NCBI GenBank assembly: GCA_021464245.1
Contig: JADCRB010000016.1
Location: 4,767,250 to 4,831,249 of the forward strand
From: Carallia brachiata
Taxonomy: Eukaryota; Streptophyta; Magnoliopsida; Malpighiales; Rhizophoraceae
Reading direction: 5' to 3'
Length of the DNA stretch: 64,000 nucleotides
Below the pieces are notes generated by a model. That model saw only the letters and a program-made list of their open reading frames with translations. It had not been told where the DNA came from and made no database searches. A program made the translations under genes and the position numbers. Of this stretch, positions 3,307-42,500 are shown piece by piece (position 1 is the stretch's first letter; the number at the start of each line of letters is the position of its first letter).

Positions 3307-3479
3307 TTAAGACCATTAGTACCATTCATTATAACTTTTTTTTAAGCTTTTCTTTTAATACAAGCCTTTGGTAAATATTAAATAGAGATGGTCAACAAAC
3401 AGATTGGATCAAATTCAGATTTTCAGTTTTTAATCCGTTGTGTTTCAGATTGGTCAGGCTAAAATTTGTTGGATATATG

Positions 3480-4249
3480 TGTAACGGGTAAATTTCGAAC
3501 CTGTAACAGTTAGACTTGAAAATATAAAAATAAATTACAATAAAAAATTGTAAAATAAAAAGAAATTTATATGGGGTCGATTTCCGTAGATCCTCCGATT
3601 AGTGCTCATTTTTTTGACTCCGTCAAGAGCTGCACGAACTTGATCTTGACAGAAATAATTTCCACAGTTTCATCTTGAACTGAGTAGACTGAAACTGGAT
3701 CTGATTTGGACGTTTAGACTACGGTTAAGAACCGCAGAGATCTGATTTAAACCAGTCTGACTTAATTTCACCGAGAGTCGAAGAGACTTGTTCTCGGATG
3801 AGTTGCCTGTTACCCATGTTTGTTTTTTTTTTTTTTTTTTTTGTGTGTGGTTGGCTTGTTTATTTTTCTGGAGATTCTTTCAATAATTGGTTTTGCAATG
3901 TTTTTGCTGATACCTTTGAAGCTTACAATGCTGCCTATTTATAGGCTTTTGAAAGGCACTATTTCAACTACCAAGGATGATATTTTTTAGTGATTTTCCT
4001 CGTTAGGTAGCTCCCCTTTGAAATTAAATGGTTGCCTTTTGACATTGGATGGCCACATTCTAGAGGACGTGCATGTGTTTGCTGTCCAAGTTTGAAGAAC
4101 AAGCTGCAACATGCATGCATTTGCCCACCATGCTTAAAAAATGCACCATGCATGCATCACGCGGTTCTGTTTCTTTTTGCTTTTTTGTTTTCTAGAAGTT
4201 GACCCATTCAGCCTTCTAGATGCATACTTTTTTTTTTTTGATATTTACA
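3480..4249 (-). repeat. 3' LTR of the gypsy element
   Basis: It starts TGTAACGGGTAAATTTCG and ends TGATATTTACA, so it has the TG...CA ends expected of an LTR. It aligns along its whole length with 7585-8361. About ten differences fall in the first 200 bases, so the insertion is not recent. A poly(T) tract near 3820-3842 and a TGCATGCATT-rich patch near 4110-4155 are shared by both LTRs. The open frames in it are matched in the other LTR and are not genes. Confidence 0.9.
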
Positions 4250-5164
4250 AATGCCCTCCACTTCAAGAGTTGGTAAGGAAGAACTTTCAGGGATGTGATC
4301 TGAACCGAATCTTAAAGTCTAGTTTGAAATTTGAGATGTCTAGATGAATATTGAATGTTGAAGTCTTTTACCTTTGGCTAGCCTGCTGTTGTTGAATCGC
4401 AATAGGAATCCGATACGATTTTGAGAAAGTTAGCAGCTCAGCCAATATAAAAATTGAAGTCTTTGCTCCAAATGAGGTCGAGCTTCCATAGCTCGCAAAT
4501 GCTAGCAAAGGTTCTTTGAAGTTCCAAAACTCTGGTGAAGATGATCCGGTAGGCAAAAAACTTGAACCTCCCCAAGAGGAAGGCCCAGCACTATGGAATT
4601 CAAGACCTGCGCACAGAGAGATGGGTTATGGTGATGATTCCCGAATCTGTTTCGACGTAAGGAGAGTAGTTGGAACTTCCCTGCACGTCGCTGCATTTGT
4701 AGATCCAGGATAACGATCAGAACTTCTCGGCTCACTACGATAGATGTGAACTAAGGAGAGTAGTTGGAACTCTATGACACCGATGACGTTGGAGACTGAG
4801 TTTCGAGGGCTTTTAGGGATCTCTCGAGGATGACTACTTCTTCTTTTCTTAGCTCGTGCGCCTCCAACTTCTTGATCAAATAACTTTTTAAGACAAGTGC
4901 AGAGACTAGTCATTTTCTTTTTGAGAAAAAGAAGAGCTGAGGGGTGAGTATTACAACTCGGGTATGCAGGATATATATACAAACAATAAAGAGTTTTTTT
5001 TTTTAAAAGTCAAAAAAAGGTACGCAGAATCGAGTAGGGTCATCCACGTCCCTTTCCCGCATAAGAGACAAAAGAGGCAACGACTGAAGCGTATCACGAA
5101 AGTCGTTACCGTGTGTTGTAAAAGTCATTGCCGTATGCTGCAGAAGTCATTGCACCTTATCTTG

Positions 5165-5895
5165 TCAACCGTCCTGGCGGGGCCCGAGACGTAGTTCTAA
5201 GTCAAGCTCGGCCTCGTCTGGTGGGCCGATGATGTTGACGTCGCTGGAACTTTTTGGCTGGTTGATGCTGCTGGAATATGCTAGGAAGAGAGACAAAGTT
5301 TCACCGGAATGACTTCTTTCTACTAGAAAAGTCTCTCCTGAAGTTAAGTATTTAGGAGAGATAAACCCTTGACTGACTCCGTAAGACCACCAGGACCAGT
5401 ACGCATGCTCCCACAGGCTACAGTTTTGATTGTTATAGCCTGAAGAGACTATTACAGTGGTATAACTCGGACCTGCTTCATTTGAGGGCGAAGCTGTACC
5501 AGTGGGATCTACTATCGGAACGACAGACTGTGCTTTGGAAAAATCAGTTCTTAGTGTTGGTTTCTTCCTGCTTCTCCGATTCTGGAACCAATAAAACACA
5601 TTTTTTCCTTCAATTGCCCCGAGCGGGCACAGTCGTAAGACAAGTTGATAAATCTGAGATGTATTAGGAATAATACCTCCATTGTTGTGGAAGACTTCCT
5701 CCAAATTTTGTAATTGTGCCATGGTTGGTTGCCACCTTGTGCGGGGTGACCTTTCTTCTCCCTTATCTTAAGGTTCTGCAACTGGTTCCATCTTTCTTGT
5801 GGCAGAGGAGTAAAGGTCTGGTATGTGATGAAGATCGGCTGAGACTGAGGCTGGGTTTCAGACTCAAACCCTCCATCGTTTTTATATTGTTAGGT
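5165..5895 (-). pseudogene. WUSCHEL-related homeobox (WOX)-type gene captured in the LTR element
   Basis: WOX proteins are plant homeodomain transcription factors controlling stem-cell and organ identity. An open frame of 185 residues from the Met at 5722 continues upstream to a stop near 5767, so the homeodomain begins before that Met with TRWQPT. Helix 3 is intact in IEGKNVFYWFQNRRSRKK, including the WF.N core that contacts DNA. Further along, GETLSLFLAY resembles a weakened WUS box (normally TL.LFP), and the C-terminus has an EAR-type repression motif, ELDLELRLG. Upstream, a proline/glutamine-rich stretch lies in another frame, and two one-base shifts (near 5745 and near 5870) separate it from the start codon at about 5880, so I call it a pseudogene. 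No intron is evident, which suggests capture through RNA. It lies in the same orientation as the retrotransposon, between integrase and the 3' LTR. The product could still be made from 5722 with a truncated homeodomain. Confidence 0.75.
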
Positions 5896-5929
5896 CATTC
5901 ACAGTTTATACTCATGCGGGTCAGGAGTT

Positions 5930-6235
5930 GGATTGGATTTTGAACTTGGGTTTTAGACTGTATCTGGAACTTGGAATTTTTGGGTTTTGGGTTTTGGGTT
6001 TTGAATTAGATTTGGGTCGAGTATTTGGACTTCTAGACTTAGATTTTTGGATTTGGATCGAGTGTTTAAGTTTTGCATTTGGACTTTTGGATTTGGGTCG
6101 AGTGTTTGGGTTTTGACTATGGACTTAGTTTTCAGACTTTTGAGTTGGGCTTTGAGTTTTATGAATTAGGCTCAAGTGTTTGGGCTTGGATTTTTGGGTT
6201 TAGATTTTCGCTTGGACTTTCAGATCGGGACTTCC
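5930..6235. repeat. degenerate minisatellite inside the LTR element
   Basis: The words TTTGGGTTTTGGACTT and GGATTTGGGTCGAGTGTTT recur in altered forms across about 300 bases, for example near 6010, 6050 and 6090. It separates the WOX-like gene from an A-rich (minus strand) tract at 6240-6365. The long open frames here come from the repeated low-complexity words and are not protein genes. Confidence 0.65.
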
Positions 6236-6379
6236 CAACTTTTTTTTTTTTGATTTTTTTCTTTTTTTTCTATTTTTTCTTATTTTTTTTTATATTTTTT
6301 CGATTTTTTATTTTATTTTTTTCTATTTTTTTGATTTTTTTTGATTTTTTTGATTTTTTTAAACATATTTACACATAAT

Positions 6380-7235
6380 ACTGTTTCAGAAATTTACCAT
6401 TGATCGGGCCGATTCGAACGCCTTCTTGATCTGACAGCATATAAGCGTTGTGAGTATAAACTTCTTGCACTAAGTATGACCCGTCCCATTTGGAAGTAAG
6501 CTTGTCACTAGGCCGATACTTCATGTTGATGGGCCGTCGCATTGGAAGAACAAGGTCTCTAATTTGAAAAGATCGAGGGCGGACCCTGCGGTTGAACGTG
6601 TTGGTGAGTCGGGCTTGGTAACACTCAAGTTACTGTTGTGCTTCGAGTCTCCTTTCATCGAGGACTTCTAACTCATCCAGACGTAAGTAAGCATTCTCCT
6701 CCTATGTGAGTCCTTCCAGAACAGCCATACGGAGAGATGTAATCTGTGTTGCCAAAGGCAGTATTGCTTCAACACCGTAGATAAGTGAGTATGACGTCGT
6801 CTGTGTTGGAGTCCAGTAAGTTGTACGATATACCCATAATGCTTTCGAAATTCTGTCATGCCAATTTCTTTTAGATTTGGAGACTACCTTCCGCAATAGG
6901 TTGTATAAGATCTTGTTGAATACTTCGGCCAAACCATTTGCCGGGGCATTGTACATGGATGACTTGTACTGCTTGAATTTGAACTTCTCGCAGAGTTTGT
7001 CAATCAAGCTGTTGTAGAACTGTTTGCCATTATCAGTGATGATGAATCGAGGGACTCCATAGCGATAGATCAGTTAAGTCCGGATGAAATTAGCAACATG
7101 CTCCTTCTTTACCTCTCTAAGTGGAATAGTTTCGGCCCATTTTGAAAAGTAGTCTGTTGCTGCGAAAATGTAAATGTAACTCAGTGATGACTTTAGTAAG
7201 GACCCCACTAAATCAAAACCTCAAGTTTTAAAGGG
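6380..7235 (-). pseudogene. gypsy integrase fragment
   Basis: This encodes the C-terminal half of a gypsy Pol, the integrase that inserts the cDNA copy. On the minus strand I read ATDYFSKWAE (first catalytic Asp), IITDNGKQF (second Asp), NAPANGLAEVFNK (with the catalytic Glu), LWVYRTTYWTPT and YGVEAILPL. The C-terminal core RPRSFQIRDLVL follows, and the end GKFLKQYYV is typical of elements without a chromodomain. In-frame stops near 7075 and 6700 break the reading frame. The zinc-finger part and everything upstream in Pol are missing. It supports classing the whole element as Ty3/gypsy, but it cannot supply active enzyme. Confidence 0.88.
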
Positions 7236-7299
7236 ATAGGATGAGACAGTTGGATGCAGTGGAATAATTACCTTTTTTTTGTGGCAATAGTTGTACTCC

Positions 7300-7584
7300 T
7301 TTTTTATGTCATTTGATTTGCTGGATACCTGTTAATTTTTTTTTACTTTTTTTTTTTACTTTTTTACTTTTTTTTGTCTTTTTCTCTATTTTGTTTTTTT
7401 GTCTTTTTCTTTTTTTCTTTTTTCTTTTTCTTTTTTTTTATTCTTTCTCAGTTCCTCTTTTTTCCTTTTTTTTCCTTTTTTTTTCTTTTTTTCTTTTTTC
7501 TTTTCTCTGCGGCTTCTTTTTGTTTTTTTTTTTTAGGAACAAGATATGGGAGGTGAAGAGGTCCCATCGAGCGTGCCAAAAATT
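7300..7584 (-). other. leader and A-rich spacer of the LTR element
   Basis: On the minus strand the LTR end is followed by AAATTTTTGGCACGCTCG and then GGGACCTCTTC. This is the kind of TTTGGCACGC leader often found at gypsy primer-binding sites; the exact tRNA is not identified. The next 230 bases are almost pure A with some G on the minus strand. Gag and the first half of Pol would normally start here, so the spacer marks the internal deletion. Confidence 0.6.
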
Positions 7585-8361
7585 TGTAACGGGTAAATTT
7601 CGAGCCTGTAACAGTTAGACTTGAAAATACAAAAATAAATTACAATAAAAAATTGTAAAATAAAAAGAAATTTATGTGGGGTCGATCTTCGTAAATCTTC
7701 CGATTAGTGTTCCTTTTTTTGACTCCGTTAAGGGCTGTACGATCTTGATCTTGACAGAAATAATTTCCACAGCTTTATCTTGAACTGGGTAGATTGAAAT
7801 TGGATCTGGTTTGGACGTTTAGACTACGGTTAAGAACCACAAAGATCTGATCTGAACCAAATCGATCTGACTTAATTTCACCGACGGTCGATGAGACTTA
7901 TTATCGGATGAGCTGCTTGTTGCCCGTGTTTGTTTTTTTTTTTTTTTTTTTTTGTGGTTGGCTTGTTTATTTTTCTGGAGATTCTTTCGATAATTGGTTT
8001 TGTAATGTTTTTGCTAATGCTTTTGAAGCTTATAATGCTGCCTATTTATAGGCTTTTGAAAGGCACTATTTCAACTATCAAGGATGATATTTTTTAGTGA
8101 TTTTCCTCGTTAGGTAGCTCCCCTTTGAAATTAAATGGTTGCCTTTTGACATTGGATGGCCACCTTCTAGAGGACGTGCATGTGTTTGCTGTCCAAGTTT
8201 GAAGAACAAGCTGCAACATGCATGCATTTGCCCACCATGCTTAAAAAATGCACCTTGCATGCATCACGTGGATCTCTTTCTTTTTGTTTTTTTGTTTTCT
8301 AGAAGTTGACCCATTCAGCCTTCCAGATGCATACTTTTTTTTTTTTTTTTTGATATTTATA
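7585..8361 (-). repeat. 5' LTR of the gypsy element
   Basis: It matches 3480-4249 from the initial TGTAACGGG to the final TGATATTTATA. The terminal CA of the partner is TA here. It carries the same poly(T) tract (7931-7953) and TGCATGCATT patch (8215-8265). The promoter should lie in this copy on the minus strand. Confidence 0.9.
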
Positions 8362-8366
8362 GTATG

Positions 8367-11700: not shown

Positions 11701-12640
11701 AAGGGTTAAGTTTAGTTTTAGGTTTAGGTTACTAACTATAAAATCATCAAAATCAGGTTAGGAACTATGAAATTGGTATAAATTCTGGTTAAGGCCGTCA
11801 ATTTCCTGACGCCGTTAAATTATTTGGTTCAAATTGATTTTTCGTATGAATTCATTTTCTTCTGTTTTTTATTATTAAAAAAATATTTTAAAATAAATAA
11901 ATTTTTAATAGTATTTATTGTTATCTTAAATATAATTTTAATAATAAAAAAATAAATTTTAAATAATATTTACTATTACCTTAAACGTACTAATTATTAT
12001 TCTAAATCATATTTTTTTAAAACAATTACTTTTCTTAAAAAGCGTCATGACACTATTTAAACAGTAAAAATATTTTTTGTTTTTTTACTGTATGAACAGT
12101 GGCCAGCACAATGCAAATAATATTTCTTAAAAATAAACTGTGCCTGCACAATACTTTCCTGTCAACTTCGCGGCTCCCATTTCCATCCATAGAGTTTCTT
12201 CGTAAAAAGAAAATTATCACAACTTTTAAGAAAAGTAATTTTTTAAAAAAATATAATTTAAAGTAATATTTAATATGTTTGTAGTAATATTAAATATTAT
12301 TTAATATTTATTTTTTTGTTATTAAAATTACATTTATAGTAACAATAAATACTATTTAAGTTTATTTATTTATTTATTTTAAACATTTAATTTTAATAAT
12401 AAAAAAATAAAAAAAAATGAGTCCAAACTAAAAACTACAATCTGAACAAAATAACTAACGCTTTTAGCAGTCCAATCAGCAAAATTGACGACTCTGACTG
12501 GAATTTATACCAATTTCAAAGTTACTGTCCTGCATTTGTACTAGTTTCATAGTTATTAACTTAATTTGAACGATTTTATAATTAGCAACCCAAATCTGAT
12601 CAATTTCAAATTTATTAACCTAAAACTGAACTTAACCCTT
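11701..12640. mobile_element. 940-base foldback element
   Basis: The left end reads AAGGGTTAAGTTTAGTTTTAGG and the right end, inverted, reads AAGGGTTAAGTTCAGTTTTAGG. The match continues inwards for several hundred bases (TTGGTATAAATTC, TATTTACTATTACC and others), leaving a GC-richer spacer near 12060-12200. No protein is encoded and no target duplication was obvious. Long inverted arms suggest a non-autonomous DNA transposon. A transcript across it would fold into a long hairpin. Confidence 0.7.
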
Positions 12641-15196: not shown

Positions 15197-16217
15197 ATGG
15201 TTAAATCAAGTCAATCTATTCCTATGACTGAGGATGAGGTGCTTGAGGTTGAATCCAAGGATAGATGGCCAAAAGGAGCTGAAGACCTCTTTATTTCTTT
15301 GATAGAAGTTGAGTTTAAAAAAGGTAATAAAAAAACCACCACCTTTGTTCGGAATGCTTGGAAGACAATTCAAAATGAATTGAGTTAGAAAACTGGTAAG
15401 AGTTATTCTCATGTTCAGCTAAAGAACAAGTTCAACGCTCTTAGAACTCATTATAAAAATTTCAAGAAATCATCAGTCAAATAAGAGTGAGTTATTCCTT
15501 TCCTGCCAATACAATTTCAGCTTCTAATAACCAATTAGAAAAGTTTGCTTAGGTAAACATTGTATTGAATCAATTTGTTTTTATTTTTGCATTGTTATAT
15601 TCAAATATATATTAACCATGAATTATTATGTTGTTTTGTAGGAGATAAAAAATGCAAAACAATTTCAGAAGAAGGGTTGCAAGAATTATGAGAAGCTATG
15701 CATAATTTTTAGAGATACAGCAACAACTGCACAACATGCCTATGCTTCAACTCAGAGTCCCTCTAGCAATGAAAATGGGGAGAATAATGAGAATGAGAAG
15801 AAAGAGTTTGATGAGGTTGACAATGATACTGATGGTGTCCATCAAGATAAAAAGTCTAAAATAAAGACTAATTCAGGAACAAGAGGAAGAAAGGAATCTA
15901 ACTTACTTCAATCTATATTGGCTAATTGTTTGGCCCAAATGACAAAAAATTTGAAGAAAAGTAATGAGTTGCTTGAGAAAAGGTTGAATCCATCTTCACA
16001 AGATTCTACTAGTTGCAGTGGGCATGTGTTTGGGCCTACAAATCCCAGCGTGCATTCTATTGACGCTTGCATGGAGGCACTTGATCAGTTAAAAGGACTA
16101 GATGAGACAACATATTGGAAGGCAACCCAACTGTTCAAAGATGAAGCTAATAGAAATATTTTCTTGAAGATGCCAGATGCAAGGAAAAAAACATGGCTTT
16201 TAAATATGACAATGTAG
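15197..16217 (+). pseudogene. Harbinger ORF1: Myb/SANT-like DNA-binding protein
   Basis: PIF/Harbinger elements need a Myb/SANT-like partner that brings the transposase to DNA. The first part, from the Met at 15197, has the family pattern: W near the start (KDRWPKGAEDLF), a GNK(K)TT stretch, FVRNAWKTIQNEL, then YSHVQLKNKFNALRTHYKNFKK. A stop (TAG, 15386-15388) interrupts the domain. An intron-like gap at about 15485-15640 precedes an exon starting EIKNAKQFQKKG. That exon contains an acidic Asn/Glu-rich linker, a basic patch and the conserved C-terminal block around CMEALDQLKGLDETTYWKATQLF, ending at 16217. The early stop is the clear defect. Confidence 0.75.
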
Positions 16218-18803: not shown

Positions 18804-19305
18804 AGAAATATCAATACTTTTAATTCTAAATTTTTATGATTTTTTTTTACGTCTGAATTCTAAATTTTTTTGACATTTCATTTGAATTCTAAACCTTTTG
18901 ATTTTTTATTAAATCAATTCTTCTGTTTACCAAAAGTGATCAATCTATTAAAAAATAATTTTAACTTTATAAAAAATTATTTAAAAAAGATTAAATATAT
19001 AAATTGAATGTCTTTTTTATCAAAAATATGCATGTTACCTATTTAATTCGTATATTTGTTGATTAAAAAAATATTTAATGTGCATATTTTGTTGATAAAA
19101 AAATATTTAATTCATATATTTAACCTTTTTTAAATAATTTTTATTAATTTAAACTCATTTATTAATTGATTGACCATTTTTTGTAATTTAAATGACTGAT
19201 ATAATATGAAATCAAAATATTTAAAATTCAAATGAAATGTTATAAAGGTTTAGAATTCAAATATTAAAAAACTTAAAAATTTAAAATTAAAAATATTGAT
19301 ATCTC
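18804..19305. mobile_element. Mutator-like foldback MITE, copy 1
   Basis: A 502-base palindromic element. The two arms are near-complete inverted repeats running from ATATCAATACTTTTAATTCT on the left to the inverse at AAAATATTGATAT on the right. It is flanked by a perfect nine-base target duplication, ATTCTACAT, at 18795-18803 and 19306-19314. Nine bases is the hallmark of Mutator-like elements. Closely related copies lie at 37874-38372 and 58418-58916. It has no coding capacity. Confidence 0.9.
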
Positions 19306-21669: not shown

Positions 21670-22938
21670 TTAGACAACCTCAACCGGAGGAAAGTGAATA
21701 TTAGAGGACAAATCAAGCAAGTCCACCGTCAGCATGGACGCCTTTGGCTTTGGTACTCTGCCGGAATAGCCCATTGACAAGGGCGGCCGCTGAGCTGCAG
21801 TTCTCTCACATGTGCCCAGCCATTTTGCTTGCATGTATCTTTGCTTTCTCCATGGCCCCAAGTGCATTTTCTTTTCTTTCATGCACTTCTTGGCTCCCAA
21901 GCATATGGTCTTAATCACAGTGTTTAATCTTTCAGCTTTCCCCACGAATACTTCCGGCAACCGGCTTACCAGCCGGTTATATTCTTCGCTTGCTTTTGCC
22001 ATCTCGAATTCAGCCCGAAAATTTAATTCGATTATGATCCTTACCTCTCCTTTCTTAGGACTTGAATTGTCTACAACATCTAGAAAACTGTGCTCTCCTG
22101 CAAAATATATGACAAACAAAGGCTTGTAAGATTGAATATCGTATGCAACTGAGAAATCCCAAGTGCAAGTTGCAGGCAGTTGATCAAATTTCGAAGTACC
22201 ATTTTTGAGATTAATAACTAATTTATCAGATTGTGTCGAATTACCTGATGGGATATCTGGACAACTTCTCCATTTAGTCTTGCAAGAAGCACTATTATAG
22301 CCAGCGTTGGAAAGACGGGCGGACACTTCAGTCATCAAGCAATTCCGGCACCCGCCTGCCATTGATCTCCCACAGTTACAAATAGTTCCAGCCAGTTTCA
22401 TTTCCTTTACTGCTTCCTTGGTGATGTTTCTTATTCTTGATTCCAAGGAGCTTGTCCTACATAATGTAGCCTGCACACCATATAAATCCAGCACAAAACA
22501 ATAGAAAGATAATAGCTTAGTTTAGTCCTTTTCATTTATGCTATGCAGAAATTAAGTTGTATAATGGCAAGTTCGAATTCCAATGCGACCAATTAATTGA
22601 AAAAAAAAAAAAAAAGCACATGGGCATGCATGATAGAGATAGAAAATTATGGGATTTACTTGTAGAAGCTGACATTGTTGCTCCCAAAAGCCCTTATCCT
22701 CTTCAGCATTAGCATTGTTCTCTTTCTCTCCGTCTACTTCCAAGTCTAATGCCTCGCTTTCCTCAAAATCTTCACTGCTAGTGCTAGAGCTCGAGGGCGG
22801 CAACCCATCGCCATCCTCCAAAAACCCAAAAACCATATCGGATAAACTCGCCGGCGGCTGATCGTGAAACTGGTTCAAATTGCCATTGCGCAAAAAATCC
22901 TGTTGATTAATTGGGAATAGAATTTTGGCTCTAGGCAT
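21670..22938 (-). CDS. DUF506 (PDDEXK-like) family protein
   Basis: The protein is of unknown biochemical function. DUF506 proteins (PF04720) are plant-specific with a predicted nuclease-like fold, and one Arabidopsis member has been linked to root-hair growth. Exon 1 is 22938-22660 (93 codons) and exon 2 is 22470-21670; donor CAA/GTAAAT and acceptor GTGCAG/GCT join in phase 0 to give 359 residues. The N-terminal third is acidic and Ser-rich (near 48-65), with SLSDMVFGFLEDGD typical of the family. Then come the Cys cluster CNCGRSMAGGCRNC, SNAGYNSASCKTKW, FVIYFAGEHSFLDV and the signature LPEVFVGKAERLNTVIK with MHLGPWRKQRYMQAKWL. Length and order are normal and no defect is seen. The start fits because a TATA-like GATATAAG lies about 70 bases upstream. 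Confidence 0.93.
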
Positions 22939-39508: not shown

Positions 39509-42500
39509 ATGACTGAAGGGCCTTTGGGGATCCGCACTGCGAGTTATGGGTCTTTGGACAAGCCGTCACAACTACTACAGCAGAACAGTAATGGTGGTGG
39601 TGGTGCTCTCTTGCCTATTCAAACAACAACCCGTGCTAAGCCTGTCAAGATGTTTAAGGATAAGGAAAGGTTCTTCCATTGGATCTGTAAATTTGCTGGC
39701 CGCAAAAAGGTCGGAATGCTTCTACTTTGTGTTGTCTCGGCCGTGGTTTTGGTCTGGGTTCTGTCTGTTGCAAAAGGTCTGCCTGTTTGTCCGTCCATCT
39801 GTTTTTGATTGGCCAATGTTCCGTTTCTTATGCAATTATAGTGCTGCTAGTGTTGTTCCTTATCATCATGCCTAGATTGCATTTTTTTTAATTTTTATTT
39901 TTTTGTAGTTAAGTAATGGATATTGCAGTTATCGTATGCTGTGCATTGGTCTGCGTAACGTTTAAGATTATAGTTCAATAACTTACTGAGGAGAGACACT
40001 TGTTTAGCAATGGGACTAGTTTGATTCTTTTTACTTGCAGAAAGACAATCTGGTGTGGACATGAAATGATTCTTAAATCTGGTAGCTTTTTAAGCCTTTT
40101 GAGATGTTCCCTTGCCTGAATGCCTCAATTGCAAGAAGTGCACTTTGTGAAAATATGTTTGTTATTTCACCTGCAACTATCGAAGTGATGTGGCAATTTG
40201 GCTTGTTTTTAGGTGAAAATGAGCAAGAAGGTGACCGCGTGCCAAACATTAGTGTCGATGACAACATGTTCCTTACAAATGGAGAGAATACAACGTTGAT
40301 CATTAGAGGATTGATTGGAGGGCTTACTTTGTCGCCTCCTCCTCAAGAATACTTCCAAGGGTACACTCTTCCTCCAGGGCATCCTTGTAACAGTTTCACA
40401 TTACCTCCTCCACCAGCAGATAAGAAAAGAACTGGACCACGGCGTAAGTTTCTCGTCCTCGCTCAAATGCTTTCTCCGTCTTTTGCAGCCATCCTTTTCT
40501 AGGTTAACATTTGTTGCTGGGGTTCCTGAATGAGGGCTGTTAACTTGTGCACATTCCAAGATAGAAAGGGGATTAAGGTGCTAATATATTGTTACTCAAA
40601 AAAAAAAAAAAAAGGTGCTAATATATTGAGCGAATATGTTACATCAAATGTGATATGCCTTGGCTGTTATTTTACAGCATGTCCTGTGTGTTACCTTCCT
40701 GTGGAAGAAGCCATTGCTTTAATGCCAAAGGTCCCCTCATATTCCCCGGTACTTAAGAATTTGACATATTTATACGAGGATCCGCGAGGCAGAGATGGAG
40801 AATTTGGAGGTTCCGACTTTGGTGGGTTTCCTACTTTGAAGCAGAGAAGTGATTCTTATGATATTCGAGAATCAATGAGTGTGCATTGCGGGTGTGCTCT
40901 CTCTCTGTTTCCCTGTCTCCCCTTCTTTCCCCTGCTGCAAGAAAAGATAAAAGGAAAAACAGAAATTCTTGCTGTACATTTTAATGACCGAAGGCTGCTA
41001 CATTTGGAATATAGTTGCTTTATTTTGTATCTTTGAAACATTCTCTAGTTTCTAGTTTCTATTGGCTGTCACATCTTTACGTTCAGTTTTTGAATGATGT
41101 TAGGTTTGTCAAAGGGGAAAAACCTGGCCGCAATACAGGATTCGACGTGGATGATGTTGACCTGGCTGCCATGGATCAGTGCCAGGGTGTGGTTGTTGTC
41201 TCAGCAATATTTGGTATTGCTTTGTGGATCGCAATTTCAATTGATGATTTCCCTATTCTTTTCTAAACCAACAGATTGCCTACTGAATAAGCTGTTTTCC
41301 TCAGGAGCCTTTGATGACATACACCAGCCAAGTAACATCAGTGAATATTCTAGGAAAACTGTCTGCTTCTTTATGTTCGTGGATAAAGAAACAGAAGCAT
41401 ATCTGAGGAACAATAGTCCTCTGGATGAGACCAGGAAGATCGGTATTTGGAGAGTTGTTGTGGTCCATAATCTTCCATATACAGATGGTCGGCGCAATGG
41501 AAAAGTAAATTCTCTAAACTCTGTTGTCTTCTAAATGTTTGATTAGAGTTAGCTTAGATTTTCTATCTCTCCATCTATGATACTAGATTTGAATTCTATT
41601 TTGGGATTCCTATTGATTGACTAGTCTCCACAGCATGAGAGGATGGAAAGATGCATGCAGTGGAATGTGCTCAGGTCTTCTTATGGTATATGGTACCAAG
41701 AAATTGCATGTGGTCAAAGTGTAAAATGTTTGAGAGGGAACATCGAATGGGTGCCTTGCTGGTCCTGTGTATTGATTTGAAATTCTATCTTATTGTATGT
41801 AGTGGAATTCTTTGGGAATATTAGGATTATACTTAAAAAGCTCATAGCACCTAGTTTTTTTCTCTCATAAAGTCAGAAAAATATAAGTTGAGCACTGTAG
41901 TTACATTGGTTTTGGTATTCATCCTAAATTTGTTACTTGTGCGAGGTGCTACATTTGTTAGCTTGATAATCCAATTAATCCTTGTTGCAGGTTCCAAAGC
42001 TCTTACCGCACAGGTTATTTCCAAATGCTCACTTCTCTTTGTGGATTGATGGGAAACTTAAACTTGTTGTTGATCCATATCAAATTCTTGAAAGGTACTT
42101 TGGATTTTCCTCAAGTATTTTTCCATCCGTGACACTGATATATGAGCATATCCATGATTTTCTTCATTTTATTAGGTTACCTTATGCCTTTTTATGTTTG
42201 GTACAATGTTGTCCAAGGCACTGGGTGCTCTAAGGCTGATGATATAGGACAAACAAGAAAAAAGAACACCTTACACGGTAACCCGCCCAAAACTAATAAC
42301 ACGAGGGGATTCACCTGAAAATAGACTTAAACTCAATCCTCAATATCAATTCAGTATTCATATCAAGTCTCTAAACAATGAAAATAACGTAGGTCCTATT
42401 TGCAGGGATAGTTAAGAAACTAAATACGAAATAATTCAATCTCTCCAAGTAGGAAAATTTTCTTGAATAACTAATCCAATGAAATCTTATAATAAATTAT

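Follow-up and report, generated by a model that had tools for sequence, protein, structure and literature searches.

An internally deleted Ty3/gypsy-like element of Carallia brachiata (positions 3480-8361, minus strand, of the window, by which we mean the whole 64-kb stretch of DNA that was analysed) carries an open reading frame (ORF) for a WUSCHEL-like protein, which has the same sense as the element and is located between integrase and the 3' LTR. What is new here is that the homeodomain of this ORF is far more diverged from WUSCHELs than the LTRs of the element are from each other. We consider it somewhat probable that a plant Ty3/gypsy element carries an old WUS-clade capture, which was kept coding as an extra gene while diverging fast.

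The element has the hallmarks of an LTR retrotransposon, namely paired LTRs, a target-site duplication with one mismatch, and a polypurine tract. The 5' LTR (7585-8361, minus strand, 777 bp) and the 3' LTR (3480-4249, minus strand, 770 bp) align over 767 columns with 93.7% identity, the differences being 39 transitions and 9 transversions (K2P 0.066). The duplication reads atatg on one side (3475-3479) and gtatg on the other (8362-8366), and the polypurine tract adjoins the 3' LTR at 4250-4264 on the minus strand. By the usual mechanism, the LTRs of one element are identical at insertion, and with the rates of 1.3e-8 and 7e-9 changes per site and year that are used for LTR dating, the insertion is about 2.5 My or about 4.7 My old, respectively. 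From the 5' LTR inward, low-complexity sequence is followed by an integrase core piece (6702-7073, minus strand; Pfam rve, E=0.0098) and an integrase C-terminal piece (6369-6629, minus strand; Pfam SH3_Tf2-1, E=0.029). Both matches are weak and below the cut-off, and stops are found before and between the two pieces. By its look, this integrase is presumably of the Tat type. No gag or reverse transcriptase was seen inside the element, and of the set of gag, protease, reverse transcriptase, RNase H, and integrase, only the interrupted integrase pieces with their weak Pfam matches were present. This copy of the element is internally deleted and non-autonomous. A repeat scan detected arrays on both sides of the ORF, namely tandem and low-complexity ones on the way from integrase (5978-6360) and a 22-bp tandem array of 2.5 copies just behind it (5099-5153).

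Comparison of the element with the 64-kb window gave only itself and the LTR pair, and thus no further copies. Elsewhere in the window, there are two imperfect inverted repeats of hairpin- or MITE-like appearance (18842-19271 and 11904-12359, with arms of 153 and 136 nt that are 76% and 82% complementary), a piece of a PDDEXK_6-domain gene (21673-22521, minus strand; Pfam E=2e-63), and a TOD1/MUCI70 glycosyltransferase-type gene with two exon-like ORFs (40530-41531, plus strand; Pfam E=3.5e-07 and 1.8e-24). An ORF at 15645-16217 on the plus strand weakly matched the At2g29880 C-terminal domain (E=0.0065, below the cut-off).

The original prediction had assigned a WUSCHEL/WOX-type gene on the minus strand to 5165-5895, between integrase and the 3' LTR. 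The motifs, the strand, and the place were borne out by Pfam, by PDB matches, and by the LTR pair, but the open stretch covers only 5165-5767 (200 codons plus stop), and the remaining approximately 130 bases up to 5895 hold no continuous frame. Within the 2119 bases from integrase to the 3' LTR, this sense frame is the longest open stretch of all frames, followed by 127 codons in sense and at most 99 codons in antisense, and when the letters of 5100-5900 were shuffled 5000 times, 200 open codons in a sense frame never arose. In a different sense frame, a 112-codon ORF (5551-5889, minus strand) without a Pfam match overlaps with the beginning of the WUSCHEL-like ORF.

The homeodomain is encoded at 5561-5743 on the minus strand. 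It matched the Pfam Homeodomain profile with an E-value of 1.3e-11 and 44.6 bits (cut-off 22.9). As this match spans positions 2-56 of the 57 profile positions, the homeodomain is complete. Among sequences in the PDB, WUSCHEL (6ry3) was the first match with E=2.5e-15, and STENOFOLIA (6wig) was the second with E=4.6e-14. AlphaFold2, with 33 alignment rows, predicted three helices, with block-wise pLDDT values of 94-96 for residues 11-60 and of 85 for residues 61-70, followed by a disordered tail (mean pLDDT 61.9). The best PDB matches of the model in Foldseek were WUS-HD chains and STENOFOLIA, a result that is not independent of homology because the alignment held WUS rows.

The tail contains a WUS-box-like TLSLF (5285-5299, minus strand) and, as the C-terminal LELxL-type EAR motif of WUSCHEL, LELRL (5186-5200, minus strand). 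The two are 33 residues apart, and the first L of LELRL stands 11 residues before the end. In 46 WUS proteins, the motif order is alike, and the same spacings are 32-48 and 6-19 residues. When the 127-residue tail was shuffled 200000 times, both motifs came up in this order only twice, for motifs that were chosen after looking. The WUS-box-like stretch, TLSLFL, matches the TLPLFP of the WUS-box at four of six positions, with the P replaced. An origin of LDLELRLG from a SUPERMAN-type zinc-finger gene was also considered but dropped because Arabidopsis WUS ends in SLELRLN (P0139).

For the assignment within the WOX family, we used a panel of 240 related proteins, consisting of 120 listed of 2260 (WOX11-type, from a search alignment that held full-length WOX11) and 120 listed of 4047 (WUS and WOX1 types, from an alignment without it). 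The spacing from RW to WFQN is 49 in the ORF and, among the matches listed, 49 in 79 and 48 in 41 proteins of the second list, but 48 in 120/120 of the first. Among these matches, the spacing of 49 is shared by every one of the 47 rows with a TLPLFP box, whereas the rows with TLQLFP or TLELFP have 48 in 11 of 12 cases and 49 in one. The ORF homeodomain thus has the one-residue insertion in helix 1 that characterizes WUSCHEL and that is termed WUS-specific within the WOX family in the available text of the structure paper (PMC7203112). One of the panel proteins, P0121 from Hibiscus syriacus, is named '2-oxoglutarate and Fe(II)-dependent oxygenase' in the database and yet has a WUS homeodomain, a TLPLFP box, and an SLELSLN end, so that the name is probably wrong.

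Percent identity and tree do not separate WUS from WOX1 types. Among the matches listed, homeodomain identity is at best 49.2% for WUS (mean 46.6%, n=44) and at best 41.9% for WOX11 types (mean 39.4%, n=45), and for WOX1 types, with one ORF residue dropped at the best place, it is at best 51.6% (mean 46.3%, n=30). The residues after WFQN are NRRSR in the ORF, which is a WOX11-type reading, versus NHKAR in WUS. A profile of 46 full-length WUS proteins matched the ORF with E=8.2e-22, the WOX1-type protein P0162 with 2.4e-41, and the WOX11 protein P0001 with 5.4e-20; the match to the ORF stops at residue 96, and the tail beyond is unmatched. The tree panel covered WUS, WOX1, and WOX11 types, as distinct from WOX2-WOX9 and WOX13 types. 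In a 67-row tree, the ORF has a branch of 4.5 and stands outside WUS plus WOX1, on their side against WOX11, and in the AU test with a 31-row tree, none of the groupings with WUS, WOX1, or WOX11 was rejected (p-AU 0.328, 0.226, and 0.407). Taken as sequence evidence, these results firmly indicate a WOX protein. Membership of the WUS clade appears well supported by IEGKNVFYWFQN and the EAR motif, and from the helix-1 insertion and the EAR motif, the source was probably WUSCHEL itself. Our overall confidence is slightly lowered by the equal closeness of WOX1-type homeodomains in percent identity and by the fact that intronlessness carries less weight than it might seem to.

From the homeodomain through the EAR motif, the coding sequence runs on without an intron and in the element's orientation, just as predicted. 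This continuity fits the capture of a spliced RNA but is no proof of it: in the available parts of the respective study, the number of exons is two to four for WOX genes of cotton and one to four for those of Arabidopsis (PMC5501002), and as a WOX gene with only one exon thus exists in Arabidopsis, lack of introns does not prove an RNA source. The same continuity would also be expected if a WUS retrocopy had landed in the element without ever belonging to it, and an 11-base A-run in transcript sense lies behind the ORF at 4994-5004. Such a nested insertion is nevertheless highly improbable, as there is no flanking direct repeat of at least 10 bases (the 9-base matches are one word and T-runs) and a retrocopy of a conserved WUS gene that was no older than the insertion of the element would not have diverged this far. 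Of the earlier proposal that the element captured a WOX mRNA, the capture of a WUS-clade coding sequence by an LTR element is well supported by place, sense, continuity, and the lack of a nested-insertion signature. The freshly captured host mRNA does not fit because the homeodomain is too divergent for a conserved WUS gene taken near insertion time.

The extent of this divergence is central to the argument. Among the matches listed, the ORF homeodomain is 44-49% identical to 44 distinct WUS homeodomains, which are at least 79% identical among themselves (mean 91%). The LTRs differ by only 6.6%, and therefore nearly all of the protein divergence predates this insertion. Identity to the WUS consensus is 13/16 in the recognition segment versus 17/47 elsewhere (Fisher p=0.003, for a segment chosen after looking), and of the 36 positions with a constancy of at least 99% in WUS, the ORF retains 23 and differs at 13. 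The equivalents of R38, W39, Q89, N90, and R94, whose roles in WUS are described in the available text of the structure paper (PMC7203112), are all kept. As this contact-residue pattern is kept in 239 of the 240 panel rows, it shows a working-type recognition surface and not a tie to WUS.

It was in principle conceivable that a captured WUS fragment had drifted without selection and is open by chance, and the in-frame stop before the homeodomain, the lack of a usable start, and the 13 of 36 changed WUS-invariant positions would be in agreement with such a passenger. We simulated neutral drift of 43 WUS sequences (180-200 codons, random codons, no indels) to a homeodomain identity of at most 0.49. 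Only 8 of 2000 runs with kappa 2, 5 of 2000 with kappa 4, and 0 of 2000 with a GC-to-AT bias remained without a stop, and at most one stop, with the upstream stop counted as old, was found in 40, 48, and 1 of 2000 runs, respectively. Together with the uneven conservation centred on the recognition helix, these low numbers make a neutral passenger improbable. We read the divergence pattern and the open frame as a likely trace of selection on a DNA-binding protein before this insertion. For this single copy, the selection may have acted while the gene was part of the element or, before a later capture, while it was still a host gene.

The latter case would be the recent capture of a fast-evolving WUS/WOX paralogue of the plant lineage, transduced shortly before insertion and of no gain for the element. 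It would account for the high divergence and the open frame without selection in the element, and the available text of a review describes plant LTR elements with transduced genes that exist in one or few copies (PMC7264820). No close relative of the ORF was found among annotated proteins of 0.55-1.75 times its length, where a WOX11-like protein was the only one of 79 candidates to pass E 1e-3, and this agrees with a lineage-private gene. Searches of collections other than plant genomes, namely viral contigs (with the ORF, a three-row alignment, and the integrase) and bacterial and archaeal sequences (with the ORF), gave no relative either. However, such a paralogue would be unusual in view of the mutual similarity of the 44 WUS homeodomains in the matches listed, and none of the 120 rows listed of 4047 is as divergent as the ORF. 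We regard such a recent capture of an already divergent host gene as possible but rather unlikely, and read the data as suggesting an old capture kept as a coding gene.

The present copy is a broken, internally deleted relic. Upstream of the ORF, an in-frame ATG reading MEP (5789-5791) is followed by an in-frame stop (5768-5770; together 5768-5791, minus strand). MEP is the start of 39 of 79 WUS-spaced rows among the matches listed, but as the former start of a WUSCHEL-like protein it is only suggestive because the stop sits between the ATG and the homeodomain. No usable in-frame start was found ahead of the homeodomain, the upstream ATG being cut off by this stop. The change of about 3% since insertion could explain a single stop at this place. 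It had been suggested that the encoded repressor could act as a dominant competitor. With the in-frame stop and no start for the whole homeodomain, this does not hold for the copy as it stands, and a dominant product from this locus is unlikely; the idea may still apply to intact copies, if any exist.

In the history that we propose, a plant Ty3/gypsy element would have taken up a spliced WUS-clade coding sequence, most likely that of WUSCHEL, long before the present copy inserted, and the sequence would have come to lie in sense orientation in the interval from integrase to the 3' LTR. The captured gene would then have been carried as an extra gene that stayed coding and diverged fast. Its likely product in intact copies would be a short nuclear repressor. 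Its homeodomain would keep the base contacts of WUSCHEL, a linker of some 90 residues would include a weak WUS-box, and the EAR motif at the C-terminus would recruit corepressors of the TOPLESS type, as EAR motifs do. Such a protein may have bound WUSCHEL-type sites and repressed genes where the element must be active, in meristems or germ-line precursors. Of this history, the sequence itself shows the anatomy, the homology, the order of the motifs, and the pattern of divergence, while the time spent in the element, translation of intact copies, DNA binding, repression, and a benefit to the element are presumed. The element's own LTRs showed no enrichment of WUS sites for TGAATGAA, TTAATGG, TCACGTGA, and TGAA, the lowest of 14 tests being 26 of 200 shuffles; these motifs come in part from the available text of PMC7203112. 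A bolder version, which we consider speculative and unlikely, is that a gypsy lineage took over a stem-cell master regulator, with an accessory WUSCHEL-type repressor that, in meristems, competes with the WUSCHEL of the host or imitates it, whereby cells leading to the germ line would express or spare the element.

Compared with WUSCHEL, the ORF is alike in its homeodomain with helix-1 insertion, in the base contacts, and in the order of the WUS-box-like and EAR motifs, but it differs in its low homeodomain identity, its shorter length, the replaced P of the WUS-box, NRRSR in place of NHKAR, and its location inside an LTR element. Tat/Retand gypsy elements such as Grande, RIRE2, and Retand likewise have additional coding sequence, along with tandem arrays, in the interval from integrase to the 3' LTR. 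According to the available text of a Retand survey, such arrays are frequent between pol and the 3' LTR, and the ORFs with known domains there are antisense, mostly TRP28, with no sense ORF of known domain (PMC11963269), in contrast to the sense orientation of the WUSCHEL-like ORF. Antisense TRP28 ORFs are also described in the accessible part of a review of additional ORFs (PMC7264820), and TRP28 (Transposase_28) was absent from the five antisense ORFs that we scanned in the element. Host-type regulatory domains are shared with orchid Gypsy elements carrying an AlkB m6A demethylase gene and others carrying B3 or YgdH/LONELY GUY (PMC9289625); 'homeo' has no occurrence in the main text of that paper, its supplementary chart aside (PMC9289625). 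Captured host genes in LTR elements, such as maize Bs1 and those from rice and sorghum surveys, are also sense-strand host sequences between LTRs, as far as the review text goes (PMC7264820). Theirs are described as existing in one or few copies (PMC7264820); in the present case, the divergence of the gene from its source family far exceeds that between the two LTRs. 'Homeo' is absent from the available text of a 2026 gene-capture review (PMC13317346), and the accessible parts of the cotton and Brassica napus WOX papers describe transposons near WOX genes and none inside LTR elements (PMC5501002, PMC6482515). Among the matches listed in the open-licence PMC literature, a set that is distinct from subscription papers and preprints, none was by its title or start of abstract a report of a WUS, WOX, or homeodomain gene in an LTR element.

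Even as a relic, the homeodomain gene extends the set of domains that the available text of PMC9289625 reports for Gypsy elements, namely AlkB, B3, and the LONELY GUY type. If intact copies exist, a transposon would possess a variant of the very switch by which plants maintain their stem cells, and transposons rarely retain a developmental master regulator. It would then become directly testable whether plant transposons steer meristem cell fate or silencing to reach the germ line. The WUSCHEL-type repressor of the element, if the bolder version were true, would correspond in plants to the accessory regulators of retroviruses.
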